DNA of 64,000 nucleotides, taken from assembly GCA_947449735.1 (NCBI GenBank), contig CANFTB010000013.1:30355-94354 (forward strand). Direction: 5' to 3'. Origin of the DNA: Chthoniobacteraceae bacterium (GTDB lineage Bacteria > Verrucomicrobiota > Verrucomicrobiia > Chthoniobacterales > Chthoniobacteraceae). The position numbers were made by a program, and so were the translations under genes. Positions 14,701 through 64,000 of the stretch are shown in pieces; the stretch's first letter is position 1; each line of letters starts with the position of its first letter. The notes beneath the pieces were generated by a model. That model made no database searches. It saw nothing but the letters and a program-made list of their open reading frames with translations, and was not told where the DNA came from.

Positions 14701-14830
14701 CGGAAATCTTGGAGTTGCAAAAGACGTATTCTGTCGGGGCGCAGTTTTACCGTGGTGGGAAAGCGCGGGGAAGGATGTCTCTTTCGTTCGACGGCATGAT
14801 CGCTAGGAGGGGGAATCGAGCAGGGTATGC

Positions 14831-16654: not shown

Positions 16655-16683
16655 TTCAAAAATGGCAGAAAGCTGCCGGACGG

Positions 16684-39761: not shown

Positions 39762-40113
39762 GGGGCGTAGCTCGGGAGGTGCCTGCGGCGTTGCGGCGGG
39801 ACGGGCGCAGGCGTTATGAAGGAAATGCTGGGTGGAAAGAAGCCGTAAAAGCGGAGCCGCGCGTGAAATCGGGGTGGTTTCTTTTATTGGGTCCGGTCAT
39901 TGCAGGGTGGGCCAATTGTGCATGCAGTGCTTTTTTGGCGCGGATTCTGCTTTAGCTGGAAGCGCTCGGGTGTGCCCCAGACGCCTGAAATTACAACGCA
40001 TGATATCAACCAGGTCCTCCAAGAATGCTGCAAAGCGCTCTTGGAAATCGTTTTGCGCGAGAGCCAGCTCACTGTTTCCGATCAGAGGAAACGGAGCGCT
40101 CCTCCGTGCCCGC

Positions 40114-43100
40114 ATGGTTTCTCATGCCGCCCTCTCGGCGCTTTTGACGGTTCTTCTCTTCCTCTCGCCGGCGGCAAGCTTTGCCGCGACCGTGACTTTC
40201 AAGACTCCCGTGACGATCAGCGGGGATTCGGACGTGCTGAATATCGGGTCCACCGTGTTCGCCTACAACTTCTACTCCAGCGGCGGCTCGGTCAACGGCG
40301 TCTCCTTCACCAGTTCCACCAGCACGACCGGAGCGGGGAATCTGGGGCTTGCCCTGACCAGCGGCGCCTACTCTGCGAACCTTTCCGGGAGCGGAACGAA
40401 TTTCAACGCCCTTTCCTCGACCTACAAGCTTCTGCTGAGCGGCGCCGTATATGGCGACGCCATACCCGCCTCCTCTGGGTTGACTGCCAATTATTATGGC
40501 GCCATGAACAACGGGGTTGCCCAGGGGGGGAACTTCGGGACACCGATCCTGACCACCACCACCCCCCAGATCGCCTTTGACTGGGGTTTGGGAGGGGTGG
40601 GCGGGACGTCGTACGCTGACGGCGCAAGCGCCCGTTTTACCGGCAAATTCACGCCCAACTACACGGAAACCTACACCTTCTACACCCAGTCCGACGACGG
40701 GATGCGCGTGGCGGTTAACGGGGTTAACGTTGTTAGTAGCGGATGGATAGATCAGGGAGGGAGTACTTACTACTCTGGAACTGTGAACCTTACGGCGGGG
40801 GTCCCCTGCGATATTTCCGTGGAATACTACGAGAACAGCGGGGGAGCGGTCTGCAAGCTCTACTGGTCGAGTCCTTCGCAGACGGGCAACGTCATGACTC
40901 TCATGCCATCATCGGCCTTCGTGACTGCGGTTTATCCCAAGCCGATGACCCTGACTCTCAACGGTCTCACGGTGAACAAGGCATACGCAGTCCAGCTCTG
41001 GTCGAATGACAGCACCGGATCCTACAACGCCCGCAGCAATCAAATCTCGGGCGGCGGAACCGCGGTTTCGCTTGATGTGAACTCCCAGGACATCACCGGC
41101 GGCGTCGGGCAGTTCACTATCGGGTCGTTTGTCGCCAACGCGACCTCACAGACGATTTCCGTGGTGGGCGCCGCTTCCTCAGGGGGCATCAGCACGCAGA
41201 TCAATGCGGTTCAGCTCCGTGACATCACCGGCATATGGAGCGGGGCCATCAGCAATGTCTGGGACTCCACCACCACCAACTGGTCCGGTGGACAGGCCTT
41301 CAACACCTTTGCCGCTGGAACGCCACTCACCTTCGCCGACGTAGATGGAACCGGCACGGCGGTGACCAACTCGAGTCCCGCAATACAGGCCGCCGGTATC
41401 TCCGCCTCCGGGACTGTGACTGTGACGAGCAACACGGTAAATTACACGCTAGGCACCTCCGGAGGCACGCTCGGGCTGACCGGAGCCGCCTCCCTTGCGA
41501 AGTCCGGAGCCTCCACACTGACGCTCTCAGGCACCCATTCTTTCACCGGGGGCATCAACCTGACGGCGGGTACTCTAAAGACAGCCTCGCTTGGGGCTCT
41601 GCCCAATGGTCCAGTGACTGTGGGTTCGGGCGCCAGGCTGGACCTGAATGGCTTCAACCAGACGATCGGTCTCCTCACCGACAACGGTTCCGTGGTGAAC
41701 ACCGGCGCCGAGGCGACGCTGACCCTGACGAACAACATCGGCGGCGCCGCCACGCCTGCCTTCTCGGGGACGTTAAATCTGGCTTTCTCTAACAGGTCAT
41801 CCGCCTCCCAGTACGTTGCCTCGAATTTAAATACGCTCGGCACCCTCGCCAACACTGGAACAGGGACGGGAGCCGTGGCAAACTTTTCCACAACAGGGAT
41901 TGCAGGGGCCACCGCCGGCGTGGTCGTCCTGAATGGTTCTCTCGGAACATCCGTCACCAAGCTCGTCCAGGACAGCCCGACATCACCCTTGGTGGTTAAC
42001 GCCTCCAACTCGGCTTTTACTGCTCCCATCGAAGTCCGGCAGGGGGCTCTCGTAATTGGCAACAAGAACAACTCCCTCTCGAACGTCCTCGGCAGCGGGA
42101 CCCTGACCATCGGAACCGGGACCTCCAATGCCGCCCTCGTTTTCGCCGCCCGCTACGGCATGGCGTCCACGACCGGAAGCGACGGGGGTAATTACACCCT
42201 CGTCAATCCCATCGCCACCGGCGGCTCGGGAACGAACATCATCGACGTCACGGATTACGGTCTCACCCTGAGCGGTACGATTACGCTTGGAAGCGGTCTG
42301 ACCATCGCCACAGGCAACGGCCTCGGGTCTACAGTGAACGTCTCAGGCGGGGTGGGCGGAGCTGGAAACATCACCGTCTCCAACTCCAGCGGATCCGGCG
42401 CCGGTTCCAATGGGAGCGTGGTGACATTCGACACCAAGCCGATCAACCATATCGGCACCGTCACTTTCAACAACGCGGCCGTCCTCGGCGGTGTCGCTGG
42501 TACCGGCACCGGCACCAACTCCATCACGGGCGGCATCGGCTCGAATGTGCAGGCCATCATCCAGTCCAGCGCGACCAATCCGCTCACTATCAGCGGGACG
42601 ATAGACGTGAACCCGGCGGGCCTTGCGATCACGTCGAACAGCGCAAAGTTGATCACGGTTTCCAGCCCTACAACCGGCACCGGAGCGGTGACGCTCAATT
42701 TAAACAGCACCGGAGACATCACCCTGTCGAGCGCCGTGCTGAGCCATGCCGGGGGGATCATCGTAAACGTGAACGGTTCGGGCACGCCCACTGTGACGAA
42801 TCTCGGAAGCTATCCCGGACCCATTCTTTTCGGGGGGACGTCCACGACAGCGCTGACGATTGCCTCTGATATGAGTGCGAGTTTCCCAGGTGTTACCCAG
42901 AACAGAACAGGATCCGCGCTTTCCCTCAGTGGAGCGATTACGCTGAATTCTTCCGGTAAAACTTTTGTAAGCAACGGCTCCCAAGCGCTCAATTTAACGG
43001 GTGCCATTTCGGGCGCCGGCGACCTGACCATCAAGGCGAACTCCACGGGACTGCTCTTCGTGGATGGCGCTCTGAACTTCACCGGTAATGTGATAAACAG

Positions 43101-46100
43101 CGGCTCGGGGGTCACGGGTTCTCTGGCGCCAATCACCGGACCTGCCACCCAGGGAACGGCCCTCCTCACTGGCCCAATCGGTAGCGGGGTCGCTAAAGTG
43201 ATTCAGGACAGCGCGACTTCCGCCTTGGTGTTTTATGCCGCCAACACGAGTTGGACCGGTGGAATTGAAATCCGGCAGGGCGCGGTTGTGCTCTCCGACT
43301 ACGAAACGCTCGGAGTCACGTCGACGGCAAATCCTTCCGGACAGGGGCTTGTCACAGTGGGAACTGGCACTGCTGATGCTGCCTTCCTTTTCGGATCACG
43401 CTTTGCACCCAAACCTCCGACCGGTTTAGCTGCCAACGGCGGAAATCTTGTCATCCGTAATACGTTCGCAGTGCGCGGTACGGGCACCAACATTATCGGG
43501 AACTCCGACTACTCGATGAGTCTGCCGGGTGCCGTCACGCTGTATGGCGGAAGCGTGACCTTCATGAATGCCAATCCAAACGGGATCCTCGGAATTTATG
43601 AAACCCTGACCGTGTCGGGCGGAATCACCGGCACGGGCGATGTATTTGTGACCAACGCCAGCGGTACCGGCGCCACCAAGGTGGTGTTTGACACGAACCC
43701 AATCAATAACAGCGGTCGCGTCACCTTCAACAGCGCCTCTCTTCTGGGGGCGCCTGCGGGAACAGATACAACCGCAGTCAATTCAATTACCGGCGGAATC
43801 GGTTCGAACGTGGTGGAAATCGTACAGGCAAGCCCCAACAACGCGCTGAGCATTTCATCGGGGTCCGTGAATGTCGCAGCTTCCGGATTGGCCCTCACCT
43901 CGAGTGGCACCGCGAACATGACCGTCTCTGCCCCCACGACCGGCTCCGGCGCCCTGACGTTGAACATCAGTGGCGCGGGCGGGATTACGCTCTCCGGTGC
44001 TCTTGGCCATACCGGCGGAATTATTGTGAACCGCAATGGCACCGGCTCGCCTTCGATCGGGGCCTTTAGTGGAAACCTCACAATCAATGGCACTGGGAAC
44101 AGCGCATTCACAATCGCCGGAGCTTTGAACGGTTCCCAAATGACGTCGACCAGCAGCGCCCCCGCCACCTTGAGCGGCAACTGGACCCTCCCCGGCGGCG
44201 GTGCGCAGATTTCCTCCTCTTCCGGAACGCTCACTTATTCCGGGGTGATCTCCGGCACCGGCGCGCTCTCGATCAGCGGCGGCGTTTCGCTCTCGGGAAG
44301 CAACACGTTTACCGGAGGCGTAACGCTTACTCAGGGAACACTGACGTTGGGCGGCGCCTCGGGGAACGAACTCGGGCCCGTTGCCACCGCGGGAACGCTG
44401 ACTCTGAACGGCGGAAGCGTGCGCTTCGGAACTTACACCGCCTACGCGTTGTCTGCCCTGACGGGAACGGCCGACCTGACACTGACAAATAATTCAGGCG
44501 CGGCGGTGACCCTCACGGTGGGGAACGCCAGGAATCTTTCCTCGACGTATTCCGGCGCCTTTAAGGGGCTCGGCTCACTCACGAAGTCGGGAACAGGCAC
44601 TTTCACCCTCCAGGGGGCAAACAACATCGCTGGCAGCGTCTTGGTTACCGCAGGCACCCTTGCGATCGTGGACGGCGGTTCGCTTTCGGGCGTAAGCACT
44701 CTGGCGGGAAAAACCGGGGGCACTCTGTATATTGCGAACGCGTCGGTTTCGATGGGGGTTGCCGGCAATTTTGGCGTGAGTTACGGAGCGACTGGAACCG
44801 CATACACTACGATTGCGAGCGGGGGCGTGTTGAACCTTGGCAACGGTAGCGGCAGAGTCTTCATCGGTGGCGGAGACAGCGGGGGGCCTTTCGGGACAGG
44901 GATTCTGTCCGTCAAAGATGGGGCATTGGTCAATGTCGTCTCTCCCGGCGCAGGCAGTCCCACGGATGCCGTTTACCTGGCCGGATATGGAGGGGATGGC
45001 ACCATCAACCTGGACGGCGGGACATTCACCAGCGCGCGTAATTTCACCAATGGACTGGGTACAGGAACGTTCAATTTCAACGGCGGTATCCTGAAAGCCG
45101 GCACCAGTTCCACGACCTTCATCCAGAACATCACAAGCTCGTACGTAAAGGCCGGGGGTGCCGTGATCGACACCAACGGCTACGACATCACGATTCCTCA
45201 AACGTTTCTGAACTCCACCACTTCGCCGGGGGGTGGCCTCACGAAGCAGGGGATGGGCAGCCTCACGCTGCCGGTGGCAAACACCTACACGGGTGGAACG
45301 ACGATCGCCGGGGGCACGCTAAAGGTGAATGTCGCCACCGCGCTCGGCACCGGTTCGCTGACTTTCGTAAACGGCGTCCTCGAGGACGCCACCGGCACGG
45401 GCAGTCCCCTGCCATCGGGCGCGGCCCAGGTGTGGGCGGGATCTGCTGGCTTCGCCGGGACCGTTGCGATGAACACGGGAACGGGCGGCGTCACCATCGC
45501 CTCGGACACCACGGTCGATGTCCGCATTTCGGCGCTCACAGTGGCCGGCAACATTTCGGGCGCGGGCGGGCTCACCAAAATTGGCTCGGGATCGCTCACG
45601 TTGAGCGGCGTGAATACCTATTCGGGGGCGACAGTCGTGAACGTGGGAACGCTGGTCATCAACGGCGCGAGCGCGCTTCCTGCCGGCTCGGCGTTGACCA
45701 TCGCTGCGGGAGCCACGGTCATCCTCCAGAATGGGGCCGATGTCAGCAGTTTCGCAGGGGCAGGAAGTTTGATCTACGGCGTCGGAACCCAGATTACCGT
45801 GGGCGCAGGCGATACCACCGGGACCTGGGGTACCGTCGTTTCGGGTGTTCCAAGCTTTAACAAGGTGGGCTCCGGTATTATCACCGTGACTTCCGCCAGT
45901 GCATTTACGGGCAAGACTTCCATTTATTCGGGAGGCCTTAATGTGAGCAGTTTGAACTCCCTCTCGGGAAGCTCGTTTAACTGGAGTGTCTTTGCGGGCT
46001 CGCAAGCCGTGAATGGCACCTCGGACGGAGTCGGCTCTGCTGCCAGCTTTAAGAACCCTTGGGGGATGTGTGCCGATGCCTCGGGTAACCTGTACGTGGT

Positions 46101-49100
46101 GGATAATGCGGCAAACATGGTCCGCAAAATCACGAGTTCCGGTTCCGTTTCGACTCTGGCAGGAACGGGCGTCGCCGGTTATCTGGACGGACCCGCGGGT
46201 ACGGCAAAATTTTCCGCTCCGACAGCGATCGCGATCGATCCGTCTGGAAACGTCTTTGTGGGTGACAACGGCAACAGATTGGTCCGGAAGATTTCGGTTT
46301 CCACAGGATCGGTCACCACCTTCGCCGGAACCTATGCAAGTCTTCCGTTCAACAGCATCCGAGGGATGTCGGCAGACGCTTCGGGCAACGTTTACGTGGG
46401 CGACGCTGGGCTGGCGAAAGTGTTTAAAATCTCCCCAACCGACTCTTTAAGTGCTTCAGGGACGTTGACCAGCTTTGCGGACAATGTCTCCGCATCCTTG
46501 GCATTCGTCGAACCCATGGGGTCTGTCTGGAATTCCAGTGGGACAACGATGTATCTGGCCGAGCATACGACTCCCGGTCGCATCCGCCGCATCACCACCA
46601 GCGGTACCTTGGTTTCTGGAACCACGTATCTCTCCGGCCTCTATTACCCCGAATTCCTCGCGATCAACGATGCCGGATATGTCTACTACGAGGATTCAGA
46701 CAACGCGCAGTCCGTGCGACGAATCGCTCCTGACGGCACCATTCTGACGATTGGAGGCAACGCCTCGGCGTACAATACGGCAAGTACGGCGGGATATGCC
46801 AACGGCTTGGGCAGCAGCGCGCTCTTTAACGTTCCCCGTGGCATCGTTCTGGACCCCGTCTCAGGGTCGTTGTTCGTTGCCGAGTATAACAACAGGGTGA
46901 TTCGAAAGGGGACTCCGGTGAGTTTCTCGGGCAGTGCACTGGCGAGTAGTTCCTTGGGGGCGCCGGTTGATGCGACGAGCGCTACGATTGACATCGGTTC
47001 ACTCACCTCGACAGGCAGTCTGATTGTCTCGGGCTCTTCTCAGGGAACCCAGCGTATCATCAACCTTGCCGGGACGACCGGGGGCGCAGTGCTGGACCAG
47101 TCTGGCACTGGAGTCCTGCTTTTTGCGGGGTCCGTGACTGCCACGGGCGCCGGGTCGAAGACTCTCTGGTTGCAGGGGTCGACTGCAGGCAGGGCGGAAA
47201 TTTCCGGCGTCATCTCCAACAACAGCGCCACAAACAAGACGGCTCTCCTCAAGCAGGGGACAGGGGCTTGGACACTCTCCGGGGCGAACACTTACTCTGG
47301 TGGAACAACGCTTGCCCAAGGAACGCTCGTCCTGGGTGGAACGAGTGCATTGGGGACGGGAAGCCTCTCCATCAGCGCCGGAACCACCTTGGATGCTGCC
47401 AGTGCGCTGATCATGCCAGCTTTGGGCCAGGTCTGGAACGGTAGCTTTACATTCCTCGGCACAAACTCCCTCGACCTGAGCGCGGGTTCGGTATCGCTGA
47501 CGGCGAACTCCACGGTTACGGTCAACGCTGGGTCGCTCACCGCCGCCAACATCTCCGGAAGCTACGCACTGAGCAAAGCCGGCGCTGGGACACTTTTATT
47601 GGCTGGCACCAACACTTTCAGTGGCACACTTAACCTGACGGCGGGGACGCTGGTGATTAACGGGGCGAATGCGATGCCTTCGACTGTGACTCTCAATGCA
47701 GCAGCCGGCACAACGGTGGTTCTTCAAAATAGCGCACCTGTTCCAGCGATGACTGGCTCGGGAACCGTGACCTATCCGGCCGGTTCAAATGCCGTCCTCG
47801 GGTTTGCGGATGCTTCCGGAGACTCGACGATGGTTCTCTCAGGCTCCTCAAGCCTGACCAAGACTGGCACCGGTACGGTGTCACTCACTTCGAACTCCTC
47901 GTTCACGGGCAAGACCTCCATTAATTCAGGCGCTCTGAGCGTTTCTACGCTCAACAAGGTCACCGGAGGCACGGCGTCCAGTTCGCTCGGTGCGCCGACC
48001 TCCGCTGCAAACGGAACCATCGACCTCGGCAGCCTGACAGCCTCGGGAACGCTGATAGTCACCGGCTCGGCCCAGACCACAGACCGCGTCGTCAACCTCG
48101 CCGGCGGTTTGCCGATGGTCACCTATATTTCCACCGACTTTACGGCTGCGCCCTCCGGCGCCACCCTCTCTTCGAGCGCCGTTGTTTCCGGTGGCGAGTG
48201 TATTTTGACGCCGGCGGTCAGCGGCACTTACGGCTATCTCCTCTTCAATACGCTCCCGTCCAATCCGACGGCCTTCACCGCCCAGTTTGACTACCGCGTG
48301 AACGACGGCAGCGGAGCCGACGGCACGTGCTTCAACTACGGTGCGATCACCGCCGCCTCGGGGGATGAAAGTGGAATGGCCGGAGCTACGACCACGGGTC
48401 TCGTCATTACGATGATTGAGTATGGTACTCAACGAGTTGAGGCAAAACTGAACGGGACCATTTTGCAGACGGGGTACGTCACGCTGATTGGGGCCGCCTA
48501 TAAGCGGGTCGTCGTGGACATCAGTTCATCGAACCAGCTCACCGTGACCGTGGGGGGCACCAGTGTGATCAACGTGAGCCTCGGGGCAACTTACGGCAAC
48601 GCCGACAAGTCCGCCTGGAAGTTCGGCTTCGCCTCCCGAAGCGGCGGTGCAAATAACAAGCACAGCATCGACAATCTCTCAGTATTTGCTCCGGGCACGG
48701 GATGGTCCGGCGGCTTGGCCGGCGGAGGCGTGATCGACCAGTCCGGTTCGGGCGCTCTAGTCTTCTCGGGCGGCGTCACCGCGACGGCTTGGGGGGCCAA
48801 GACGCTCACCTTGCAGGGTTCTACCAGCGGCACCGGGGAAATCTCCGGAGCGATTGTGGATAGCGGTAGCGGGGCGACGGCGCTCTCTAAGACAGGGACC
48901 GGAAAGTGGACCCTTTCCGGAGCGAACACCTATTCCGGCGGCACGAGGCTCTCGCAAGGGACGCTTGTTCTTGGCAACGCCAGTGCGCTCGGCACAGGGA
49001 CCCTCACGATCAGCTCCGGCGCTACGCTGGATGTTTCCAGCACGCTCACCCTTCCTGCACTCGCCCAAATCTGGAATGGAGACTTCACCTTCCTGGGTTC

Positions 49101-55100: not shown

Positions 55101-58100
55101 AGTGTCCTTGGCACCGGGTAGCGTATTGCCCGACGGCCTGACCCATCGCTGGTCTTTCAACGAATTAGCCGGCACTTCTCTGGCGGACTCAGTGGGCTCT
55201 GCAAACGGCGCCATTGTCACGCCCGGCGGCTACTCCTCCACTGCAACATTGAGTTCAGGAACTGTAACGTTGAACGGAGCGACCCGCGCGGGCGCGAGCT
55301 ACGTCAAGCTGCCGGCGGGCATGCTGAGCGGTCTCACCTCTATGACCCTCGAGGTCTGGAGCTCTATTAACGCGACAGCGTCCTGGCCTTATGTTTTTGC
55401 CTTCAACGATGTTGAGGATTTCACCACTGGAACTGAGAAGACCCTTTTCGTGAATCCGTTGATGGGTGGATCCAATACCCAAGGCATGCTGAGTTTGAGG
55501 GCGCTCGGTCTCGGAGGTGCTTACGATGGCAGTTATAATGCTACCACAGTACTCGGGCAGGTTTACCACTATGCCATCGTCTGGGATGCGGCCTCCACCC
55601 AAGCAAGGATTTACCGTGATGGAGTGCTGCTTTCGACGGTGTCCGTGGCGGGACACACACTGTCCGAGATTTCCAGCAACGTTTTCTACCTCGGGCGCTC
55701 CCCGTACTCATGGGATGGCCCGGCAAACCAGTCCTATCGCGAGGTGCGTCTGTACAACCGCGCGCTTTCCGCCGCTGAGATCGCCGCCAGCACGGCGGCC
55801 GGCTCGGAGAATGTGTTTACGGTTCCTTCCAACCTGACGTTCCTCAACACTTTCACCGGTGCGGGTTCGCTGCAAAAGACAGGCGCGGGATCCGTCAGCC
55901 TTCTGTCTGCTAACTCCTACACCGGAGGTACGACGATCTCAGCCGGCAGCTTGTTGGTCTCCGCGGATGGAGGGCTGGGCGCCGGTTCTGTGAATCTTTC
56001 CAGCGGGGCTACACTCGCCTTCACCAATACTTCCGCCGCGGTTTTTGCCAACTTGATCAGCGGCCAAGGCCAGGTGGCGGCCTCCGGGACCGGTGCACTG
56101 ACTCTCTCAGGATCAAATGCCTTCACCGGAGGGGTGAAGCTGACCTCCGGCACACTGAAACTCGCCAGCGCCTCCGCGATAGGTTCAGGCACACTTTCCA
56201 TCACGGGTGGGGCCTTTGCCGCGGACAATGATCTGACGCTCTCCTCCAACAACCCGATCGCTGTGGGCGGAAACTTTGCCTATCAGGGAACCGCGAGCCT
56301 CTCGCTCGGGACGGGCACGGTAACGCTGTCGGTGTCGCCCAACATGAACGTCGCTAGCGGCACCCTGAAGTTTGGCGGCAATGTCAGCGGTACGTTCGGT
56401 GTGACGAAATCGGGAGACGGAACGCTCGTCCTCGCCGGCAGCAACACCTACACCGGCGCAACCACGGTTTCTGCGGGGACGCTCGTCTTCGCTGGAGCAA
56501 ACTCTGTCCCGACCGCCGCGAGCATCACCACCACGGGCAGCGGCGTCATCCGTCTCCAGGGCGGTGCTAAGGCGCTCAATCTGATCGGTTCCGCAAACCT
56601 CGCGCTCGCCGCGGACGCCGACGCCACCATCGGCACCGGTTCTGTGACCACCGGCACCCTGTCGGGCATCCTGTCCGGCGACGGCGGCATCACCAAATCA
56701 GGAACAGGCGCCATCACGATTTCCGGCCTCAACTCCTACACCGGCAAGACGGTCATTTCGAATGGCACGCTCTCGGTCAGTTCGCTCAACAGTGTTCTCA
56801 ACGGTTCCTCAACCAGCAACCTGGGTGCGCCTCTCACTGCTTCCAACGGAACGATCGACCTCGGCAGCCTCACGAGCACCGCCACCCTGACGATCGGCGG
56901 CAACGGACTCACGACGGACCGCGTCATCAACCTCGCCGGCACCACTGGGGGCGCTCAGATCAATCTGGTCGGCGCCGGCACGGTGAAGTTCACAAGCGAC
57001 CTGACAGCGACCGGAGCCGGGTCCAAGACACTCACGTTGCTCGGGTCATCCACGGCCGTGGGCGAACTTGCGGGAGCCGTCGTTGACAACAGCGCCACAA
57101 ACAAGACCTCGCTTGCGAAGCAGGGGACTGGAACGTGGATCCTCTCCGGTTCGAGCTCCTTCTCCGGCGGCACCAACTTGGGCGGAGGGACCCTCATTCT
57201 GAACAACGCGTCCGCGCTGGGAACTGGATCGGTGACCATCAGCGGTCCTAGCGCCATCGACAACGCTTCCGGCGCCGCGTTCACGCTGGGATCCAACCCG
57301 GCGCAGACCTGGAGTGCCGACTTCACCTTCCTCGGCTCCAACAACCTCAACCTCGGCTCCGGCGCGGTAACGTTGTCCGCGAACCGGACTGTGGGAGTGA
57401 ATGCGGGCGTGTTGCAGGTGGACGGCGTGGTTTCGGGAGCGTTCTCGCTGACCAAGTCCGGAGCCGGAACGCTGGTGCTGAACGGAAACAACACCTTCAC
57501 TGGCGGCGTGTCGCTGACGGGCGGTACGCTTATCTTGAACAAGGCGAGCGGCGGTGGCACCGGTGCAATCGCGGCCGGGACCGGCACGACTCTCGCGGTG
57601 GGAGGATCGGTCGCCAATGGAGACTTCACGTTTGCCTCCGCACTCTCGGGTGCAGGCGCATTGCAGAAGGTCGGTGGAAATACCGTCACATTGAGCGGAG
57701 CCAAGACGCAAACCGGGTTGACGACCGTCAGCGAGGGAACGCTGCGCCTCACCAGTGGCACGATTGGCACCGGCACCGTCAACGTAACTTCCCTCGGCGC
57801 ACTGCAACTGGACGCAGCGACCGACTTCACCGCGACGAACGTCCTCACAGGGGCGGGTACAGTGACCAAGTCGGGCGCCGCCAAGGTGGTTCTTTCTGGC
57901 GCAAACAGTCTGTCCGGCAATCTCCTGCTCAACGCCGGGACCTTGAGCGTGGGCAACGCGTCCGCGCTCGGTACCGCATCGCTCTCGATTGCGGCTGGCG
58001 CCTCGATCGATGCGTCGACAGCGCTCACCCTCAGCAGTTCCATTGCACAAAACTGGAACGGCAGCTTCAGCTTCCTTGGGACGGCGTCACTCAACATGGG

Positions 58101-61100
58101 AGCCGGTGCAGTGACGCTGAATGCCACTCCGACAGTAACCGTGACCGCCGGAACTTTGACGGTGGGCGGCGCGATTTCAGGTAATTACGGAGTGACAAAG
58201 TCCGGTGCGGGCACCTTGGTTCTTTTGGGAGCGAACACTTACACCGGCGCAACGACGGTGTCCGCCGGTACGCTGGTTTTGGACGGAGTGAATGCGCTGC
58301 CGGCTTCCTCGGCGTTGTCGGTGGCCGCAGGTGCCACGGTGATCTTGCAGAACGGCGCGCCGATCCCGGGTTATACGGGCGCCGGCATCGTGACGTTCGC
58401 GCCGGGTTCCAGCGCGGTTGTTGGGGTAGGGGACGCGACGCAGACCCTTCAGATCACGCTGACTGGAGCATCCACTCTTACCAAACTCGGATCGGGAAGC
58501 ATCACACTCTCCAACCTATCGACCTTCACGGGCGTCACCGCCGTTCAGGAAGGCACGCTCTCCGTTGCCTCGCTGAACAAGGTTGTCTCGGGTACTGCTT
58601 CCTCAACCTTGGGCTCTCCGACGACCGCCCTGAACGGCACGATTCACTTGGGCACGCTCGGAAAGACGGGTGCGCTGCTCATGACCGGCACGGCACAGAC
58701 AACGGACCGCATCATTAATTTGGCGGGGACCACGGGCGGCGGCGTGCTTGACCAGTCCGGTACTGGAGCGCTGGTAATGAGCGGCAGTGTGACAGCCACC
58801 GGCGCGGGCTCGAAGACCCTCACGCTGCAGGGTTCGACTTCCGGCACCGGCGAGATTTCGGGCGTCATTGCGAATAACAGCCCGACAAACACGACAGCGG
58901 TGGCGAAGCGCGGGACCGGCACGTGGACGCTTTCCGGCGCCAATACTTACACCGGTGGAACAACGGTTTACGAAGGCACGCTGTTGATCACAAACGCCAA
59001 CGCCTTGGGGACCGGACCGATTACTATTTATCCGGGTGCGGTCATTAACGCTGTCAGTACTTCTTCACGTGTGGTGGCGCTCGACTTCGTTGACAACGTC
59101 TCGATGGAGGCGCTCGATTCCACGACCCCGAAGGGCCCTCTGGGAACGAAGATTTGGAATGCGACAGCAGCCCAAGCCACAGGAAGCAAGACCGCGCTCA
59201 CCGACGATACGGGAGCAACTTCCACCGTGAATGTGGCATGGACCAGCAGCAACACCTGGCGGGTCAACGGCACGGCCACGACCTCCCAGGATGCCAGAAT
59301 CCTGCTCGGCTATTTGGACGATTCACCGAACACGGTGACGATCACCAATATTCCTTACTCCACCTATAATCTGTACGGCATTGTGGCGAGCGACAACGAC
59401 CTCAATCCCTACAACACGATGGATTTCAAGGTGAACAACACCTGGGTGTTTGGCGGAGCCTCAGCCCTCTCGGCGCCAGCCTATGGATCGTGGGCGGCGG
59501 CGGGCAGCAAATGGATACAAATCGACGTTCCCAGTGCACGGCGCGGGAATTACTGGAAAGTCAGCAACCTCAGCGGTGGGACGGCAACGATCGCCGGGCA
59601 GGTGGGCCAGGGCGGGCGTGGCAGTTTGGCGGCTATCATGGTCGAAGGAATCCTCTCCGTTGATCCCCTCAGGCTCGCCGCCGTCTCCCAATTTTGGAAT
59701 GGTGATTTTGTGTATCAGGGAACCGGCACCTTTGATCTGACCGCCGGTTCGGTGACGCTGAATGCGGATACCAACGTCACTGTTTCCACCGGTACGCTTG
59801 CGGTCACCAATATTTCCGGAGGGTATGCCCTTGGAAAGAAGGGCTCCGGGACGATGATCCTGAGCGGAACCAACACCTACACGGGGGCGACAACCGTCAG
59901 CGCAGGCACGCTGGTCATTGATGGAGCGAACGCGCTGCCTGCCACCTCTGCTTTGTCAGTATCTCCCGGCGCCACGGTCATTGTTCAAAATGGTGCCTGG
60001 ACTCCTGCGTTTACCGGGGGCGGGACGCTCTCGTATGGAACTGGAGCGAACGCCTTGCTGGGAATGGGCAATGGCTCGGGAGACGTCGGAGCGGTTCTCT
60101 CCGGTACTTCGACGCTGACCAAGGTGGGCACGGGTGAAATCACGCTCTCAAGTCTCTCCTCGTTCACCGGAATGACCTCCATTCAGGACGGTGTTCTTTC
60201 CGTGGCAACGCTCAACCGGGTTGTTTCCGGGACCGCCTCTTCAAGTCTGGGCGCGCCTTCCAGCGCCTTGAACGGTACCATCCAGGTGGGCTCGCTGGGC
60301 CAGACTGGAGCATTAAAAATCACCGGTGCCGCTCAAACTACAGACCGTATCATCAACCTCGCAGGCACCACTGGTGGCGGCGTACTCGACCGTTCCGGAT
60401 CGGGAGCACTGGTGCTCACAGGCAGCGTGACCGCCACAGGCGTCGGATCGAAGACGCTCACCTTGCAGGGGTCGACTTCCGGCACTGGCGAGATTTCTGG
60501 TGTGATCGCCAACAACAGTGCGACGAACAAGACGGCGCTCTTGAAGCAGGGCACCGGCACATGGACGCTTTCGGGTGCCAATACCTACTCCGGTGGAACG
60601 ACAATAACCGCCGGTACTCTTGCCCTCGGCAACGCCGGCGCTCTTGGCACGGGGACGCTGACGATCAGCGGAGGCTTCCTCAACAACTCCACCGGGTCCG
60701 CGTTGACGATATCCACTTCTCTCCCGCAGGCGTGGACCGGTGACTTCGGCTTCCTCGGTTCCAACAGCCTCACGTTCTCTGCGGGCACGATCGCGATGAG
60801 CGGAGACCGCACCATCGTGGTGAACGCTTCCACGCTGGAGTTCGATGGCTCGATCATGGGCGGCGGTGCGCTGACCAAGGCGGGCGCCGGCACGCTGGTG
60901 CTGGCGGGTTCCAACAACATCTCCTCGGTGAATGTTACGGGGGGTACCCTGCAGTTGAATTCTCCGACTGCCGGCGGTACGGGGGGCTTGTCGACCGCGC
61001 AGGGGACCACTGTCACGCTGGCAACGCAGTTTTGGGTGCCGGCTGGCCTCAAGAACCGGTGGTCCTTTAATGAAATCGCCGGCACCGCGTTCGCAGATTC

Positions 61101-64000
61101 AGTCGGAGGCGCTGACGGGATGATCTTTACTCCCTCCGGCAGCCCGAATGCTTCTGTGTCCGGGGGATCGTTGAAAATGCTCGGTGGTTCCGATCTGACC
61201 GCAAGCTACGCAAAGATGCCATCAGGTCTGTTGAACGGCCTGACAGACATGACGGTTGAGGTCTGGGCTTCTCTAGACGTCGTTAGCTTCTACCCACGAA
61301 TCTTTGAGTTTGGAGATGGAGTGGGACCGGGGAGCGAGACCCTGATAGAGTTTGCCACCGGCAATGACACAAATTACCCCTTTTCCGCGATTGCCGACTG
61401 GAACAGTCGCACGGCTCCGGCGGTCGCGACGCCCCTGACCTTGGGCCGGATCTACCACTGGGCTTTCGTGTGGGATTCCGCGGAAAACAAGGCGAAGTTT
61501 TACCGGGATGGCGTGCTGCTGTGTGAAACACCACTGCTCGGGCATCAGCTTTCCGAACGGGCATCGACGGTCTTCTGGCTCGGCAAATCGCATTACAGCA
61601 ACAGCGTCAACACTGCCGCAACCTATGCAGAGGTCAGGCTCTGGAAGAAGGCGCTTTCCGGTGCCGAGCTCGCGGCGAACACCGTGTCCGGCCCGGACGT
61701 GCTGCCATCGGTGTCATTTACGTTGGCTAACGCCCTCAGCGGAGCTGGAGCGTTGCAGAAAACTGGTGCAGCGATTGTGACCCTTTCTGGTTCTAATTCT
61801 TACACCGGCGGTACGACGGTTTCGGCCGGCAGCTTGGCGGTTTCCACCGATGGGACGCTTGGCTCGGGCGCAGTATCCATTTCAAACGCCGCCGCCCTGT
61901 TGTTTGCAAACTCCTCTGATCTGGCTTTCGCAAACGTGATCAGCGGGTCTGGTCAAGTGCTCGCCTCGGGTTCTGGCGCACTCACTTTGTCGGGAGCGAG
62001 CACCTTCACCGGCGGCGTCAAACTGAGCGCTGGTACTTTAGCTCTCGCTAGTACCACGGCCCTCGGCACTGGCACGCTCTTTATCACCGGCGGCGCGCTT
62101 TCCGTTGCAAGCGACCTCACCCTCGCCTCAAACAACCCCGTCACGCTAGGCGGGAACTTCGCCTATCAGGGCGCAGCGAGTCTCTCTCTCGGGACGGGCA
62201 CGGTAACGCTGTCGGTGTCTCCCAACATTAATGTCGTTAACGGCACCCTGAAGTTTTCCGGCAATGTGAGCGGTACGTTCGGTCTGACGAAATCTGGCGA
62301 TGGGACGCTGGTGCTGGCTGGCAGCAATACTTACACAGGCGCGACGACGGTTTCCGCGGGGACGCTGGTATTCTCCGGGGTGAACTCTGTTCCAACAGTC
62401 TCCGCGTTGAGCATCAGTGGCACCGGAGTGATTCGTCTCCAGAGCGGCGCGAAAGTGGGCAACTTGATCGGCTCGACAAATCTCGCGCTCTCCGCGGATG
62501 CCGACACAAATATCGGCAATGGCACGGTGACCACCGGCACGCTGTCAGGCACCCTCTCTGGTGATGGCGGTCTCACCAAATCAGGAACAGGCGCCATCAC
62601 CCTTTCCGGCGCCAACTATTACACCGGCAAGACGGTCATCTCGAGCGGCACGCTCGCGGTCAGTTCGCTCAACAGCGTTCTCAACGGTTCCTCAACCAGC
62701 AGCCTGGGTTCGCCTCTCACTGCCTCCAACGGCACGATCGATCTCGGCAGTCTCACGAACACTGCGACTTTGACCATCGGCGGCAACGGTCTCATCACGG
62801 ACCGCGTCATCAACCTCGCCGGCACTACCGGGGGCGGCCAGATCAACTTGGTGGGCACCGGTACGGTGAAGTTTACGAGCGACCTGACAGCGACCGGCGC
62901 CGGATCCAAGACACTCACGCTGCTTGGATCATCAACGGCATTGGGTGAACTCGCGGGAGGCATCGTGGACAACAGCGCCGCGAACAAGACCTCGCTTGCG
63001 AAGCAGGGGACAGGAACGTGGATCCTCTCCGGTTCGAGCTCTTTCTCCGGCGGCACCAACCTGGGCGGTGGAACCCTCATTCTGAACAACGCGTTCGCGC
63101 TGGGTACCGGATCACTGACGCTCAGCAGCCCGAGCGCCTTCGACAACGCTTCCGGCGCTGCGTTCACGCTGGGATCCAACCCTGTGCAGACTTGGAGTGC
63201 CGACTTTACCTTCCTCGGCTCCAACAACCTGAACCTCGGCTCCGGCGCGGTCACGCTCTCCGCAAGCCGGACAGTGACTGTCAATGCGGGCGTGCTGCAG
63301 GTGGACGGCGTGGTGTCGGGCGCGTTTTCGTTGACCAAGTCCGGCGCCGGTACGTTGGTGCTGAATGGAAACAACACCTTCACTGGCGGGGTGGTGCTGA
63401 CGGGCGGTACGCTGATCTTGAACAAGGCGAGCGGCGGCGGTTCGGGGGCGGTCTCTGCCGGGACCGGCACTACGCTGGCGGTGGGAGGATCGGTCGCCAA
63501 TGGAGACTTCACGTTTGCCTCTGCAATCTCGGGCGCAGGCGCATTGCAGAAGATCGGCGGAAACACTGTTACGCTGAGCGGCGCCAAGACGCAGACCGGG
63601 CTCACGACAGTCAGCGAAGGGACGTTGCGCCTCACCAGCGGTACCGTTGGCGCCGGGACCGTCAATGTCACTTCCCTCGGCGCACTGCAACTGGACGCCG
63701 CAACCGACTTCACCGTAACGAATGTTCTCACCGGTGCGGGTGTGGTGAGCAAATCGGGCGTCGGCAAGCTGGCTCTCTCTGGCGCCAACAGTCTGTCTGG
63801 CAACCTGCTACTCAACGCCGGGACCTTGAGCGTGGGCAACGCATCCGCGCTCGGCACCGCGTCGCTCTCGATCGCTGCCGGCGCGTCCATCGACGCCTCA
63901 ACCGCACTGACGTTGAGTGGTTCCAGCGCACAAATCTGGAACGGCAGCTTCCGCTTCCTCGGGACGGCGTCACTCAACCTGGGAGCCGGTGCAGTGACTC
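40114..64000 (+). CDS. giant secreted autotransporter-associated beta-strand repeat (PATR-like) protein; 3' end beyond the window
   Basis: Frame 1 is open from ATG 40114 (alternative in-frame ATG at 40000) to the window end, at least 7962 codons; every + ORF in the track here is in another frame. Signal peptide MVSHAALSALLTVLLFLSPAASFA. Dozens of units like SGANTYSGGTTLAAGTLALGNAGALGTGTLTISGG, KAGAGTLVLAGSNN. No stop codon seen, so it is missing from the ORF track. Confidence 0.93.
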   Translation, partial: MVSHAALSALLTVLLFLSPAASFAATVTFKTPVTISGDSDVLNIGSTVFAYNFYSSGGSVNGVSFTSSTSTTGAGNLGLALTSGAYSANLSGSGTNFNALSSTYKLLLSGAVYGDAIPASSGLTANYYGAMNNGVAQGGNFGTPILTTTTPQIAFDWGLGGVGGTSYADGASARFTGKFTPNYTETYTFYTQSDDGMRVAVNGVNVVSSGWIDQGGSTYYSGTVNLTAGVPCDISVEYYENSGGAVCKLYWSSPSQTGNVMTLMPSSAFVTAVYPKPMTLTLNGLTVNKAYAVQLWSNDSTGSYNARSNQISGGGTAVSLDVNSQDITGGVGQFTIGSFVANATSQTISVVGAASSGGISTQINAVQLRDITGIWSGAISNVWDSTTTNWSGGQAFNTFAAGTPLTFADVDGTGTAVTNSSPAIQAAGISASGTVTVTSNTVNYTLGTSGGTLGLTGAASLAKSGASTLTLSGTHSFTGGINLTAGTLKTASLGALPNGPVTVGSGARLDLNGFNQTIGLLTDNGSVVNTGAEATLTLTNNIGGAATPAFSGTLNLAFSNRSSASQYVASNLNTLGTLANTGTGTGAVANFSTTGIAGATAGVVVLNGSLGTSVTKLVQDSPTSPLVVNASNSAFTAPIEVRQGALVIGNKNNSLSNVLGSGTLTIGTGTSNAALVFAARYGMASTTGSDGGNYTLVNPIATGGSGTNIIDVTDYGLTLSGTITLGSGLTIATGNGLGSTVNVSGGVGGAGNITVSNSSGSGAGSNGSVVTFDTKPINHIGTVTFNNAAVLGGVAGTGTGTNSITGGIGSNVQAIIQSSATNPLTISGTIDVNPAGLAITSNSAKLITVSSPTTGTGAVTLNLNSTGDITLSSAVLSHAGGIIVNVNGSGTPTVTNLGSYPGPILFGGTSTTALTIASDMSASFPGVTQNRTGSALSLSGAITLNSSGKTFVSNGSQALNLTGAISGAGDLTIKANSTGLLFVDGALNFTGNVINSGSGVTGSLAPITGPATQGTALLTGPIGSGVAKVIQDSATSALVFYAANTSWTGGIEIRQGAVVLSDYETLGVTSTANPSGQGLVTVGTGTADAAFLFGSRFAPKPPTGLAANGGNLVIRNTFAVRGTGTNIIGNSDYSMSLPGAVTLYGGSVTFMNANPNGILGIYETLTVSGGITGTGDVFVTNASGTGATKVVFDTNPINNSGRVTFNSASLLGAPAGTDTTAVNSITGGIGSNVVEIVQASPNNALSISSGSVNVAASGLALTSSGTANMTVSAPTTGSGALTLNISGAGGITLSGALGHTGGIIVNRNGTGSPSIGAFSGNLTINGTGNSAFTIAGALNGSQMTSTSSAPATLSGNWTLPGGGAQISSSSGTLTYSGVISGTGALSISGGVSLSGSNTFTGGVTLTQGTLTLGGASGNELGPVATAGTLTLNGGSVRFGTYTAYALSALTGTADLTLTNNSGAAVTLTVGNARNLSSTYSGAFKGLGSLTKSGTGTFTLQGANNIAGSVLVTAGTLAIVDGGSLSGVSTLAGKTGGTLYIANASVSMGVAGNFGVSYGATGTAYTTIASGGVLNLGNGSGRVFIGGGDSGGPFGTGILSVKDGALVNVVSPGAGSPTDAVYLAGYGGDGTINLDGGTFTSARNFTNGLGTGTFNFNGGILKAGTSSTTFIQNITSSYVKAGGAVIDTNGYDITIPQTFLNSTTSPGGGLTKQGMGSLTLPVANTYTGGTTIAGGTLKVNVATALGTGSLTFVNGVLEDATGTGSPLPSGAAQVWAGSAGFAGTVAMNTGTGGVTIASDTTVDVRISALTVAGNISGAGGLTKIGSGSLTLSGVNTYSGATVVNVGTLVINGASALPAGSALTIAAGATVILQNGADVSSFAGAGSLIYGVGTQITVGAGDTTGTWGTVVSGVPSFNKVGSGIITVTSASAFTGKTSIYSGGLNVSSLNSLSGSSFNWSVFAGSQAVNGTSDGVGSAASFKNPWGMCADASGNLYVVDNAANMVRKITSSGSVSTLAGTGVAGYLDGPAGTAKFSAPTAIAIDPSGNVFVGDNGNRLVRKISVSTGSVTTFAGTYASLPFNSIRGMSADASGNVYVGDAGLAKVFKISPTDSLSASGTLTSFADNVSASLAFVEPMGSVWNSSGTTMYLAEHTTPGRIRRITTSGTLVSGTTYLSGLYYPEFLAINDAGYVYYEDSDNAQSVRRIAPDGTILTIGGNASAYNTASTAGYANGLGSSALFNVPRGIVLDPVSGSLFVAEYNNRVIRKGTPVSFSGSALASSSLGAPVDATSATIDIGSLTSTGSLIVSGSSQGTQRIINLAGTTGGAVLDQSGTGVLLFAGSVTATGAGSKTLWLQGSTAGRAEISGVISNNSATNKTALLKQGTGAWTLSGANTYSGGTTLAQGTLVLGGTSALGTGSLSISAGTTLDAASALIMPALGQVWNGSFTFLGTNSLDLSAGSVSLTANSTVTVNAGSLTAANISGSYALSKAGAGTLLLAGTNTFSGTLNLTAGTLVINGANAMPSTVTLNAAAGTTVVLQNSAPVPAMTGSGTVTYPAGSNAVLGFADASGDSTMVLSGSSSLTKTGTGTVSLTSNSSFTGKTSINSGALSVSTLNKVTGGTASSSLGAPTSAANGTIDLGSLTASGTLIVTGSAQTTDRVVNLAGGLPMVTYISTDFTAAPSGATLSSSAVVSGGECILTPAVSGTYGYLLFNTLPSNPTAFTAQFDYRVNDGSGADGTCFNYGAITAASGDESGMAGATTTGLVITMIEYGTQRVEAKLNGTILQTGYVTLIGAAYKRVVVDISSSNQLTVTVGGTSVINVSLGATYGNADKSAWKFGFASRSGGANNKHSIDNLSVFAPGTGWSGGLAGGGVIDQSGSGALVFSGGVTATAWGAKTLTLQGSTSGTGEISGAIVDSGSGATALSKTGTGKWTLSGANTYSGGTRLSQGTLVLGNASALGTGTLTISSGATLDVSSTLTLPALAQIWNGDFTFLGSNSLLASAGSVSLTANTALTVSGGSLTVANISGSYALSKAGAGTLILSGTNSFTGTMNLTAGTLVIDGSLALPASVTINASGGTTVLLQNNAPLPLLTGAGTISFAAGNPAWVGLSDYSGNSSLVVSGSSSLTKTGSGAVDLTALSAYTGKTWIQSGMLGISSLNVVGGGTSSLGSPTTAANGTIDLGSLSSTGALRLNGGSFSTDRIINLAGTTGGGILDQSGTGTAVFGGAVTSTGAGSKTLTLQGSSTGSAQITGVISNYSATYTTALLKQGTGVWNLSGANTYSGGTTLSAGTLRLGNVSALGTGTLTLSGGALDNSSGADLTLSGNLPVNWSGDFAYLGTNSLKFGSGAVTMTGDRTITVNGATLQFDGSVSGGGALTKAGQGMLSLSSANNFSSVNVTGGTLLLNSGGAAGSGELAVSNGATLRISSATSLQTLSNVLSGQGAVVVSGTAGVKLTASNSYTGGTTVTAGSLLVSSSGGLGTGSVSTSGSATLTFVNSADLALSNQIAGSAQVLASGSGLLTLSGANTFSGGVKLTAGTLKLAGATAIGSGTLSVTGGGLAADSDLILSSNNLIALGGNFAYQGTASLALGTGAVTLSSSPTINVASGTLSIGGNISGASFGLTKTGDGTLILAGSNTYTGATTVSAGVLVFAGANAIPSASAITTTGTGVIRLQGGAKAGSLIGSANLALAADADTTIGTGSVTTGTLSGVLSGDGGLSKSGTGAITLSGLNSYTGKTVISNGTLLVSSLNSVLNGSATSNLGAPLTASNGTIDLGSLTSTATLTIGGNGFTTDRVINLAGTTGGGQINLTGSGTVKFTSDLTATGAGSKTLTLLGSSSAVGEIAGAIVDNSATNKTSLAKQGAGTWILSGSSSFSGGTNLSGGTLILNNAYALGTGSLTMSGTSAFDNTSGAALTLGSNPAQTWGADFTFLGSNKLNLGAGAVSLSANRTVTVNAGVLQVDGVVSGAFSLTKAGAGTLVLNGNNTFTGSLALTGGTLILNKTTSGGGGAIAAGTGTTVSVGDSAVSNVFPSSLTHRWSFAESSGSVLRDSVGTSDGTIVNPGGTQTATLGGGKLVLQGGPRASASYAKMPGGLLQGLKDMTIEVWAAPNVLAGAINSRILLFSDAAGSGNFISITTIGPGTGSAYLYAPNFGITSSPTITSTAGQVYHYVLVWDSAAAQVRYYRDGVLVTSAALGATTLSQLADQMLSFGYSDSGDPTFAADYLEVRLHNRALSASEIAADTLAGAEVFPSSDFTFASALSGAGSLQKIGGNTVTLSGAKTQTGLTTVSEGTLRLTSGTVGAGTVNVTLLGALQLDAATDFSVTNVLTGPGTVRKSGVGKVTLSAANSLSGSLLLNSGTLSIGNASALGSASLAITAGASVDASTAVTLSGSPAQSWNGSFTFLGTASLGMGSGAVTLNATPTITVNAGTLMVGGAISGGYGVTKAGPGTLVLSGSNVYTGPTTVSAGTLVLDGANALPASSALSVASGATLVLQNGAPIPSYTGSGAVTFAPGASVSVGAGDVTQSLSATMSGASTLTKVGAGTITLSGLSSYTGKTWIQQGALWVASLNKVSGGQASSSLGAPTTALNGTIDLGSLTSTGTLVTGGSLAAYESYLTGTPYTLSSNASNPWVLAKDLGQKWTFEAEYLMNANGGGNTLFSYGMYTDGILVRSQTGDGVWVKNTSYGPLDPFGGTTTGGQFVAVKITFDSGTMKVYAAGVLLKTSTGVGVLNPADKTIRLGAAPHGPGEGFDGQVRNIRITFDGPLPVTTTDRVINLAGTTGGGVLDQSGTDLLNYAGGVTATGAGSKILTLQGSTSGTGEISGVISNNSLLNTTALLKQGTGTWTLSGANTYSGGTTLAAGTLALGNAGALGTGTLTISGGFLNNSSGSALTISTVSAQAWTGDFGFLGTNSLTFSSGAIAMSGDRTIVVNASTLEFDGSILGGGALTKAGAGTLVLAGSNNISAVNVTGGTLQLNSGNAAGSGTISTSLGSSVSLAPGSVLPDGLTHRWSFNELAGTSLADSVGSANGAIVTPGGYSSTATLSSGTVTLNGATRAGASYVKLPAGMLSGLTSMTLEVWSSINATASWPYVFAFNDVEDFTTGTEKTLFVNPLMGGSNTQGMLSLRALGLGGAYDGSYNATTVLGQVYHYAIVWDAASTQARIYRDGVLLSTVSVAGHTLSEISSNVFYLGRSPYSWDGPANQSYREVRLYNRALSAAEIAASTAAGSENVFTVPSNLTFLNTFTGAGSLQKTGAGSVSLLSANSYTGGTTISAGSLLVSADGGLGAGSVNLSSGATLAFTNTSAAVFANLISGQGQVAASGTGALTLSGSNAFTGGVKLTSGTLKLASASAIGSGTLSITGGAFAADNDLTLSSNNPIAVGGNFAYQGTASLSLGTGTVTLSVSPNMNVASGTLKFGGNVSGTFGVTKSGDGTLVLAGSNTYTGATTVSAGTLVFAGANSVPTAASITTTGSGVIRLQGGAKALNLIGSANLALAADADATIGTGSVTTGTLSGILSGDGGITKSGTGAITISGLNSYTGKTVISNGTLSVSSLNSVLNGSSTSNLGAPLTASNGTIDLGSLTSTATLTIGGNGLTTDRVINLAGTTGGAQINLVGAGTVKFTSDLTATGAGSKTLTLLGSSTAVGELAGAVVDNSATNKTSLAKQGTGTWILSGSSSFSGGTNLGGGTLILNNASALGTGSVTISGPSAIDNASGAAFTLGSNPAQTWSADFTFLGSNNLNLGSGAVTLSANRTVGVNAGVLQVDGVVSGAFSLTKSGAGTLVLNGNNTFTGGVSLTGGTLILNKASGGGTGAIAAGTGTTLAVGGSVANGDFTFASALSGAGALQKVGGNTVTLSGAKTQTGLTTVSEGTLRLTSGTIGTGTVNVTSLGALQLDAATDFTATNVLTGAGTVTKSGAAKVVLSGANSLSGNLLLNAGTLSVGNASALGTASLSIAAGASIDASTALTLSSSIAQNWNGSFSFLGTASLNMGAGAVTLNATPTVTVTAGTLTVGGAISGNYGVTKSGAGTLVLLGANTYTGATTVSAGTLVLDGVNALPASSALSVAAGATVILQNGAPIPGYTGAGIVTFAPGSSAVVGVGDATQTLQITLTGASTLTKLGSGSITLSNLSTFTGVTAVQEGTLSVASLNKVVSGTASSTLGSPTTALNGTIHLGTLGKTGALLMTGTAQTTDRIINLAGTTGGGVLDQSGTGALVMSGSVTATGAGSKTLTLQGSTSGTGEISGVIANNSPTNTTAVAKRGTGTWTLSGANTYTGGTTVYEGTLLITNANALGTGPITIYPGAVINAVSTSSRVVALDFVDNVSMEALDSTTPKGPLGTKIWNATAAQATGSKTALTDDTGATSTVNVAWTSSNTWRVNGTATTSQDARILLGYLDDSPNTVTITNIPYSTYNLYGIVASDNDLNPYNTMDFKVNNTWVFGGASALSAPAYGSWAAAGSKWIQIDVPSARRGNYWKVSNLSGGTATIAGQVGQGGRGSLAAIMVEGILSVDPLRLAAVSQFWNGDFVYQGTGTFDLTAGSVTLNADTNVTVSTGTLAVTNISGGYALGKKGSGTMILSGTNTYTGATTVSAGTLVIDGANALPATSALSVSPGATVIVQNGAWTPAFTGGGTLSYGTGANALLGMGNGSGDVGAVLSGTSTLTKVGTGEITLSSLSSFTGMTSIQDGVLSVATLNRVVSGTASSSLGAPSSALNGTIQVGSLGQTGALKITGAAQTTDRIINLAGTTGGGVLDRSGSGALVLTGSVTATGVGSKTLTLQGSTSGTGEISGVIANNSATNKTALLKQGTGTWTLSGANTYSGGTTITAGTLALGNAGALGTGTLTISGGFLNNSTGSALTISTSLPQAWTGDFGFLGSNSLTFSAGTIAMSGDRTIVVNASTLEFDGSIMGGGALTKAGAGTLVLAGSNNISSVNVTGGTLQLNSPTAGGTGGLSTAQGTTVTLATQFWVPAGLKNRWSFNEIAGTAFADSVGGADGMIFTPSGSPNASVSGGSLKMLGGSDLTASYAKMPSGLLNGLTDMTVEVWASLDVVSFYPRIFEFGDGVGPGSETLIEFATGNDTNYPFSAIADWNSRTAPAVATPLTLGRIYHWAFVWDSAENKAKFYRDGVLLCETPLLGHQLSERASTVFWLGKSHYSNSVNTAATYAEVRLWKKALSGAELAANTVSGPDVLPSVSFTLANALSGAGALQKTGAAIVTLSGSNSYTGGTTVSAGSLAVSTDGTLGSGAVSISNAAALLFANSSDLAFANVISGSGQVLASGSGALTLSGASTFTGGVKLSAGTLALASTTALGTGTLFITGGALSVASDLTLASNNPVTLGGNFAYQGAASLSLGTGTVTLSVSPNINVVNGTLKFSGNVSGTFGLTKSGDGTLVLAGSNTYTGATTVSAGTLVFSGVNSVPTVSALSISGTGVIRLQSGAKVGNLIGSTNLALSADADTNIGNGTVTTGTLSGTLSGDGGLTKSGTGAITLSGANYYTGKTVISSGTLAVSSLNSVLNGSSTSSLGSPLTASNGTIDLGSLTNTATLTIGGNGLITDRVINLAGTTGGGQINLVGTGTVKFTSDLTATGAGSKTLTLLGSSTALGELAGGIVDNSAANKTSLAKQGTGTWILSGSSSFSGGTNLGGGTLILNNAFALGTGSLTLSSPSAFDNASGAAFTLGSNPVQTWSADFTFLGSNNLNLGSGAVTLSASRTVTVNAGVLQVDGVVSGAFSLTKSGAGTLVLNGNNTFTGGVVLTGGTLILNKASGGGSGAVSAGTGTTLAVGGSVANGDFTFASAISGAGALQKIGGNTVTLSGAKTQTGLTTVSEGTLRLTSGTVGAGTVNVTSLGALQLDAATDFTVTNVLTGAGVVSKSGVGKLALSGANSLSGNLLLNAGTLSVGNASALGTASLSIAAGASIDASTALTLSGSSAQIWNGSFRFLGTASLNLGAGAVT
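40480..40920 (+). other. PA14-like domain within the giant protein
   Basis: LTANYYGAMNNGVAQGG...SARFTGKFTPNYTETYTFYTQSDDGMRVAVNGVNVVSSGWIDQGGSTYYSGTVNLTAGVPCDISVEYYENSGGAVCKLYWSSPSQ. Confidence 0.82.
45979..46911 (+). other. NHL-type beta-propeller domain within the giant protein
   Basis: NWSVFAGSQAVNGTSDGVGSAASFKNPWGMCADASGNLYVVDNAANMVRKI...STLAGTGVAGYLDGPAGTAKFSAPTAIAIDPSGNVFVGDNGNRLVRKI...FNVPRGIVLDPVSGSLFVAEYNNRVIRK. Confidence 0.85.
48109..48710 (+). other. non-repeat concanavalin-like insert domain within the giant protein
   Basis: TYISTDFTAAPSGATLSSSAVVSGGECILTPAVSGTYGYLLFNTLPSNPTAFTAQFDYRVNDGSGADGTCFNYGAI... interrupts the conserved RVxNLAGTTGG-GVLDQSG repeat segment. Fold assignment is inferred from the pattern only. 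Confidence 0.55.
52198..52875 (+). other. LamG-like (concanavalin A-like) domain 1 within the giant protein
   Basis: VFPSSLTHRWSFAESSGSVLRDSVGTSDGTIVNPGG...MTIEVWAAP...YHYVLVWDSAAAQVRYYRDGVLVTS...YLEVRLHNRALSASEIAAD...VFPSSD. Confidence 0.8.
53941..54423 (+). other. LamG-like insert domain (divergent) within the giant protein
   Basis: AYESYLTGTPYTLSSNASNPWVLAKDLGQKWTFEAEYLMNANGGGNTLFSYGMYTDGILVRSQTG...AVKITFDSGTMKVYAAGVLLKTSTG...IRLGAAPHGPGEGFDGQVRNIRITFDG. Confidence 0.6.
55120..55830 (+). other. LamG-like domain 2 within the giant protein
   Basis: LPDGLTHRWSFNELAGTSLADSVGSANGAIVTPGG...MTLEVWSS...YHYAIVWDAASTQARIYRDGVLLSTVSVAGHTLSEISSNVFYLGRSPYSWDGPANQSYREVRLYNRALSAAEIAAS. Confidence 0.8.
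59056..59655 (+). other. non-repeat insert domain within the giant protein (type seen in PVC surface proteins)
   Basis: SRVVALDFVDNVSMEALDSTTPKGPLGTKIWNATAAQATGSKTALTDDTGATSTVNVAWTSSNTWRVNGTATTSQDARILLGYLDDSPNTVTITNIPYSTYNLYGIVASDNDLNPYNTMDFKVN. Confidence 0.55.
60571..64000 (+). repeat. higher-order repeat copy 3 (truncated by the window end)
   Basis: Register of 5883 bp to copy 2 holds at anchors 62164/56281, 62344/56461, 62884/57001, 63484/57601 and 63964/58081. Confidence 0.78.
61030..61710 (+). other. LamG-like domain 3 within the giant protein
   Basis: VPAGLKNRWSFNEIAGTAFADSVGGADGMIFTPSG...MTVEVWASLDV...YHWAFVWDSAENKAKFYRDGVLLCETPLLGHQLSERASTVFWLGKSHYSN...YAEVRLWKKALSGAELAAN. Confidence 0.8.

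Follow-up and report, generated by a model that had tools for sequence, protein, structure and literature searches.

What protein is encoded by a reading frame that is still open after 7,962 codons, where does it end, and how might such a long chain be held at the cell surface? The locus raising these questions lies in the window, by which we mean the whole 64,000-nt stretch of DNA analysed here (G000:C13:30355-94354), taken from an 89.6% complete, 67-contig assembly of a Chthoniobacteraceae bacterium. We consider it probable that the locus is one gene of ~15,240 codons, encoding a Sec-exported, fibrous surface adhesin that has a base of Ig-like domains and a tail domain in place of an autotransporter barrel.

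A giant coding frame and its continuation

The initial annotation had described a single uninterrupted frame of at least 7,962 codons with an N-terminal signal peptide, and both descriptions held. In a reading-frame scan, no stop codon was found in this frame of the + strand of the window between 39820 and 64000, giving 8,056 aa up to the window end when counted from the first GTG (39832) and 7,962 codons from the ATG at 40114. Over the giant-gene stretch the other two forward frames contain 345 and 126 stops, and 20 mononucleotide shuffles gave open runs of 329 codons at most. Furthermore, internal repeat copies differ by ~0.10, 0.06 and 0.35 per site at codon positions 1, 2 and 3, respectively, and this excess at third positions indicates translation of the frame under selection on the protein.

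The frame ends at 64000 because contig C13 (94,354 bases) ends there. Searching the genome for PATR units revealed another ORF (7,311 aa), beginning at base 1 of contig C6, and extension through an overlap between the two contigs reached a stop codon at C6:21935. The 5' half of the gene thus occupies 40000..64000 (+ strand) and continues in C6:105-21937. With the overlap removed, the joined ORF from ATG 40114 to this stop encodes 15,239 aa (1.50 MDa, pI 5.2), almost twice the length of the part visible in the window.

There are two candidate start codons on the + strand, ATG 40114 and an upstream in-frame ATG 40000 that adds 38 residues; orthologues have N-terminal extensions before the hydrophobic core of similar length to the ATG 40000 version. 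The signal peptide (40114..40185, + strand; MVSHAALSALLTVLLFLSPAASFA), recognized from sequence and hydropathy, has a Sec-type hydrophobic core and an AxA-like site.

Domain architecture

From the N- to the C-terminus, the joined protein comprises the Sec signal, a PA14 domain, ~87 PATR units with NHL and LamG insertions, four MBG-like repeats, 32 Ig-like domains and the tail. The PA14 domain (aa 139-260; 40528..40893, + strand; PF07691, E 1.9e-14) precedes the PATR (TIGR02601) beta-helix array, which starts at 41521, runs on the + strand to 64000 and spans aa 470-11,698 of the joined protein. Inserted into it are an NHL/teneurin-NHL propeller (46048..46884, + strand; PF01436 and PF25021) and at least five LamG-like domains, three of which were located in the window by the domain search (52207..52836, Laminin_G_3; 55129..55782; and 61039..61671; all + strand). 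The array had been called almost pure; PATR units are indeed present, but their matches account for ~21% of the window part, into which PA14, LamG and teneurin-type NHL domains are inserted.

Five super-repeats were distinguished, with representative segments starting at aa 3690, 5497, 7458, 9027 and 10780. Copy 1 (aa 3690-4000; 51181..52113) supplied the segment for structure modelling, copies 2 (56602..57534) and 3 (62485..63417) were placed by repeat comparison, likewise on the + strand, and copies 4 and 5 belong to contig C6. Structure prediction of this 311-aa segment from eight copies yielded an all-beta model (pLDDT 85, pTM 0.86). A PDB fold search with the model returned no match under E 0.001; the nearest folds were beta-helices, autotransporter passengers and FHA-like domains, none of them significant. 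We infer a beta-helix fold across the whole PATR array.

Beyond the array follow the four MBG-like repeats (aa 11,747-12,044), the only copies for which the MBG profile was used, since it drifted onto PATR units elsewhere. The 32 Ig-like domains, which are I-set-like, occupy aa 12,063-15,040, and the tail domain of ~190 aa (aa ~15,043-15,239) ends in the residues GE. The domain types suggest a fibre with a beta-helix head and an Ig stalk. With ~23 residues and 0.48 nm per beta-helix turn and 4 nm per Ig domain, the extended protein would measure ~0.3-0.4 micrometre.

The Ig-plus-tail module and its likely role

The PATR label had suggested an autotransporter passenger, but a Pfam search of the C-terminal 3,308 aa found Ig families and no PF03797 barrel, leaving the Ig array and a new tail domain at this end. 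The initial interpretation was supported in part: the all-beta model favours a giant, secreted, beta-helix-rich protein that is probably surface-located, but its C-terminus is not that of an autotransporter. A sorting signal was likewise missing, with neither an LPxTG motif nor a hydrophobic segment near the C-terminus as expected for sortase or PEP-CTERM anchoring. The tail was modelled as a beta-meander with C-terminal helices (pLDDT 79, pTM 0.79) and had no significant relatives in Pfam, among PDB sequences or among PDB folds, the best fold likenesses being LolA- and lipocalin-like (TM about 0.3, not significant). Across 13 aligned tail sequences 23 columns are invariant, and all 13 end in Gly-Glu or Gly-Asp at the extreme C-terminus.

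The stalk is conserved together with the tail. In ten proteins the C-terminal ~3,000-3,200 residues, comprising 28-42 Ig domains and the tail in each case, align in register over ~1,800-3,600 aa at 28-68% identity (2,500-3,400 columns for most pairs). The N-terminal passengers differ: PATR units precede the module in the giant protein and in proteins of the relatives G112 and G144, and other domains do so in a second tail-bearing giant of the same genome. The latter, a protein of 9,760 aa (G000:C23:16679-45958; L070, L071), has PA14, F5/8 type C, He_PIG and RibLong domains and no PATR match, followed by the same Ig stalk and tail. As judged from these alignments, Ig-plus-tail is a conserved module that carries different passengers in different genes.

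Two relatives contain PATR units, Ig domains and tail in one ORF on a single contig. G144:C10 encodes 9,054 aa with 42 Ig domains and an N-terminal signal peptide resembling that in the window, and in G112:C1 (L072-L074) a frame that remains open on its N-terminal side spans at least 13,322 aa with 39 Ig domains. A search for the tail was positive in 10 of 12 members of the genus and negative in all 185 other genomes of the order; a tail profile gave no match outside the genus among 388 genomes of the phylum. Scanning 84,980 species genomes with a one-peptide pattern returned 11 tail loci; the MAGs concerned bear the labels Chthoniobacteraceae, Spartobacteria, Verrucomicrobia, Opitutus or Akkermansia. 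So far, by these searches, the tail domain has been found in its own genus only. The public MAGs named Opitutus and Akkermansia (L130, L135, L136) carry the genus-specific tail and appear to be mislabelled.

Five PF03797 barrels are present in the genome, all on other proteins, which contain PATR units and measure 8,874, 6,668, at least 2,647, 1,833 and at least 1,365 aa. The longest of these (G000:C2:42447-69068), an ORF with ~70 PATR units and a C-terminal barrel, is apparently a very large, complete canonical autotransporter. Giant PATR proteins of one genome thus end in two ways, with the known barrel or with the new Ig stalk and tail.

In the barrel-bearing giants the barrel sits where the constant Ig-plus-tail module sits here, so retention of the chain at the outer membrane is most likely the task of this module. 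The tail might instead be a terminal binding or capping domain, with the protein released or held by its N-terminal part; in keeping with this, no transmembrane segment, sorting motif or barrel occurs near the tail, and its weak fold likeness is to the soluble LolA and lipocalin folds. We regard this alternative as rather unlikely, given that tail and Ig array stay constant whereas the passenger varies, a pattern more in line with a base than with a binding tip, and that the barrel proteins of the genome also keep their constant part at the C-terminus.

For the favoured reading of the module as an outer-membrane base, the following sequence of events can be envisaged. The Sec signal peptide would take the chain across the inner step, and Sec export is the well-supported part of the scheme. 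The N-terminal ~11,700 residues would fold as a long right-handed beta-helix, built partly by duplication of super-repeats of ~1.6-2.0 kaa, and glycans or proteins are possible ligands of the PA14, NHL and LamG domains. Stalk and base would be formed by the last ~3,200 residues, in which the tail of ~190 aa follows 32 Ig-like domains; the tail would replace the autotransporter barrel and retain, or export and retain, the chain at the outer membrane. From the domain content we predict a surface location, anchoring by the tail and adhesion. Tentatively, the ~190-aa tail and the in-register stalk of 28-42 Ig domains may constitute an undescribed export and outer-membrane retention module that serves, in one genus, as an alternative to the barrel with interchangeable giant passengers.

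With regard to the outer step, the genome has three secretins, including one of the Amuc_1098 pilus type and one GspD-like secretin (329.5 bits, slightly below the curated cut-off of 351). The latter makes export of the giant protein by a type II secretion system possible, which is a guess from this gene. A search of the genome for SprA gave no match, with the positive controls silent too, and P0002 had no T9SS C-terminal family match. A dedicated exporter gene in cis was considered and rejected, as no gene is common to the downstream flanks of the tail-bearing genes.

This organization resembles several known systems in part. Type Va PATR autotransporters (TIGR02601/PF12951, ShdA-like) share the N-terminal Sec signal and the beta-helical PATR passenger, the latter supported here by the PATR units and the all-beta model; unlike them, the giant protein of about 15,240 aa ends in the Ig array and new tail. 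SiiE, a giant Ig-domain adhesin of 595 kDa secreted by a type I system (PMC6272769), likewise has a stalk that is a long row of bacterial Ig-like domains, whereas the protein described here has a PATR head and a clear N-terminal Sec signal, which giant adhesins of the type I class (SiiE, LapA) lack. Similar to the intimin/invasin type, represented by the inverse autotransporter YeeJ (PMC5595812), it would present an Ig-like stalk on an outer-membrane adhesin, its surface location being predicted; however, its Ig domains are I-set-like and lie at the C-terminal end, and no barrel family, such as the N-terminal barrel of inverse autotransporters, was matched in residues 1-4800. The TPS/haemagglutination activity domain of two-partner secretion (FhaB type) was also not among the Pfam matches of these residues. 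Very long, supposed surface proteins are known from related phyla, with giants of up to 39,678 aa in the PVC group and Omnitrophota (PMC10066038; survey in PMC11573180). Those of the Velamenicoccia are poorly conserved and carry few annotated domains, in contrast to the domain-rich protein with a conserved C-terminal module reported here.

Size alone is therefore not new, far longer proteins being known (39,678 aa; PMC10066038). As far as our searches go, the new elements are the tail domain, the conserved ~3,200-aa stalk and their use beside barrels in one genome, and we found no paper on this giant protein or on giant proteins of its group. Should the tail serve to retain or export a chain of 1.5 MDa, it would represent a route of surface display with no entry among the Pfam and PDB data searched. 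The presence of the in-register 3,200-aa stalk in Chthoniobacteraceae, Spartobacteria and Verrucomicrobia MAGs makes anchoring and function testable.

The contig junction and the length of the array

The joined protein depends on the adjacency of C13 and C6. The final 104 bp of C13 (63897-64000) are identical to the first 104 bp of C6 and match no other contig end. In a whole-genome search, the exact 104-mer occurred in three places only, the C13 end, the C6 start and a repeat within C6. The overlap lies within an exact 155-bp repeat, part of which was placed at 63871..64000 (+ strand) by sequence identity to C6 and which is found again at C6:4682-4836. The frame continues across the join, and the matches to the other four super-repeat copies keep the same offsets (-3543, -1961, +1569 and +3322) on both sides of residue 7962, which places the join in register. 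The concern that the long frame might be a repeat artefact was thus partly borne out: the contig break does fall in an exact repeat, but the junction is in register and shows no frameshift.

The exact length of the protein depends on how this repeat was assembled. A correct join with a wrong number of super-repeat copies, collapsed or skipped, would leave the true length off by multiples of ~1,570-1,970 aa; the recurrence of the 155-bp repeat 4,707 bp further along C6 and the 83-90% identity of the five super-repeats over the compared segment speak for such an error. It is nevertheless improbable, as the copies differ at ~15-18% of DNA positions in that segment, short reads can be placed uniquely over most of the array, and exact repeats of at least 60 bp number just five in the whole joined gene.

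Very unlikely is that the contigs are not adjacent, so that the window ORF would be a type Va autotransporter with an unassembled barrel and the C6 ORF the end of another gene: although the break falls in a repeat, two barrel-ended ORFs without an N-terminus (on C61 and C8) are open at contig ends and no public contig was found to span the junction, the overlap between the C13 end and C6 is exact, its register agrees with four repeat copies, relatives have PATR, Ig and tail in one ORF, and at this locus the frame of a relative (G100:C10; 10,747 aa, still open) leads from PATR into an MBG-like region, just as on C6. As alternative partners of the C13 end, C61 and C8 were rejected, their ends overlapping no other contig. 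Downstream synteny was also discarded as a check on the single joined gene, since the flippase gene on C6 is located elsewhere in relatives and the downstream flank cannot confirm the join.

Upstream, a divergent GntP-type gluconate symporter gene (38364..39761, - strand) serves as a locus marker. Together with an adjoining divergent secreted ORF it is found in six relatives (G104, G060, G160, G054, G116 and G100), and all six secreted ORFs break at contig ends. Elsewhere in the window, the - strand holds a run of three neighbouring ORFs (764, 606 and 707 aa; 12406-18807) that gave no Pfam or NCBIfam match; the first and third, at least, look like genuine proteins.
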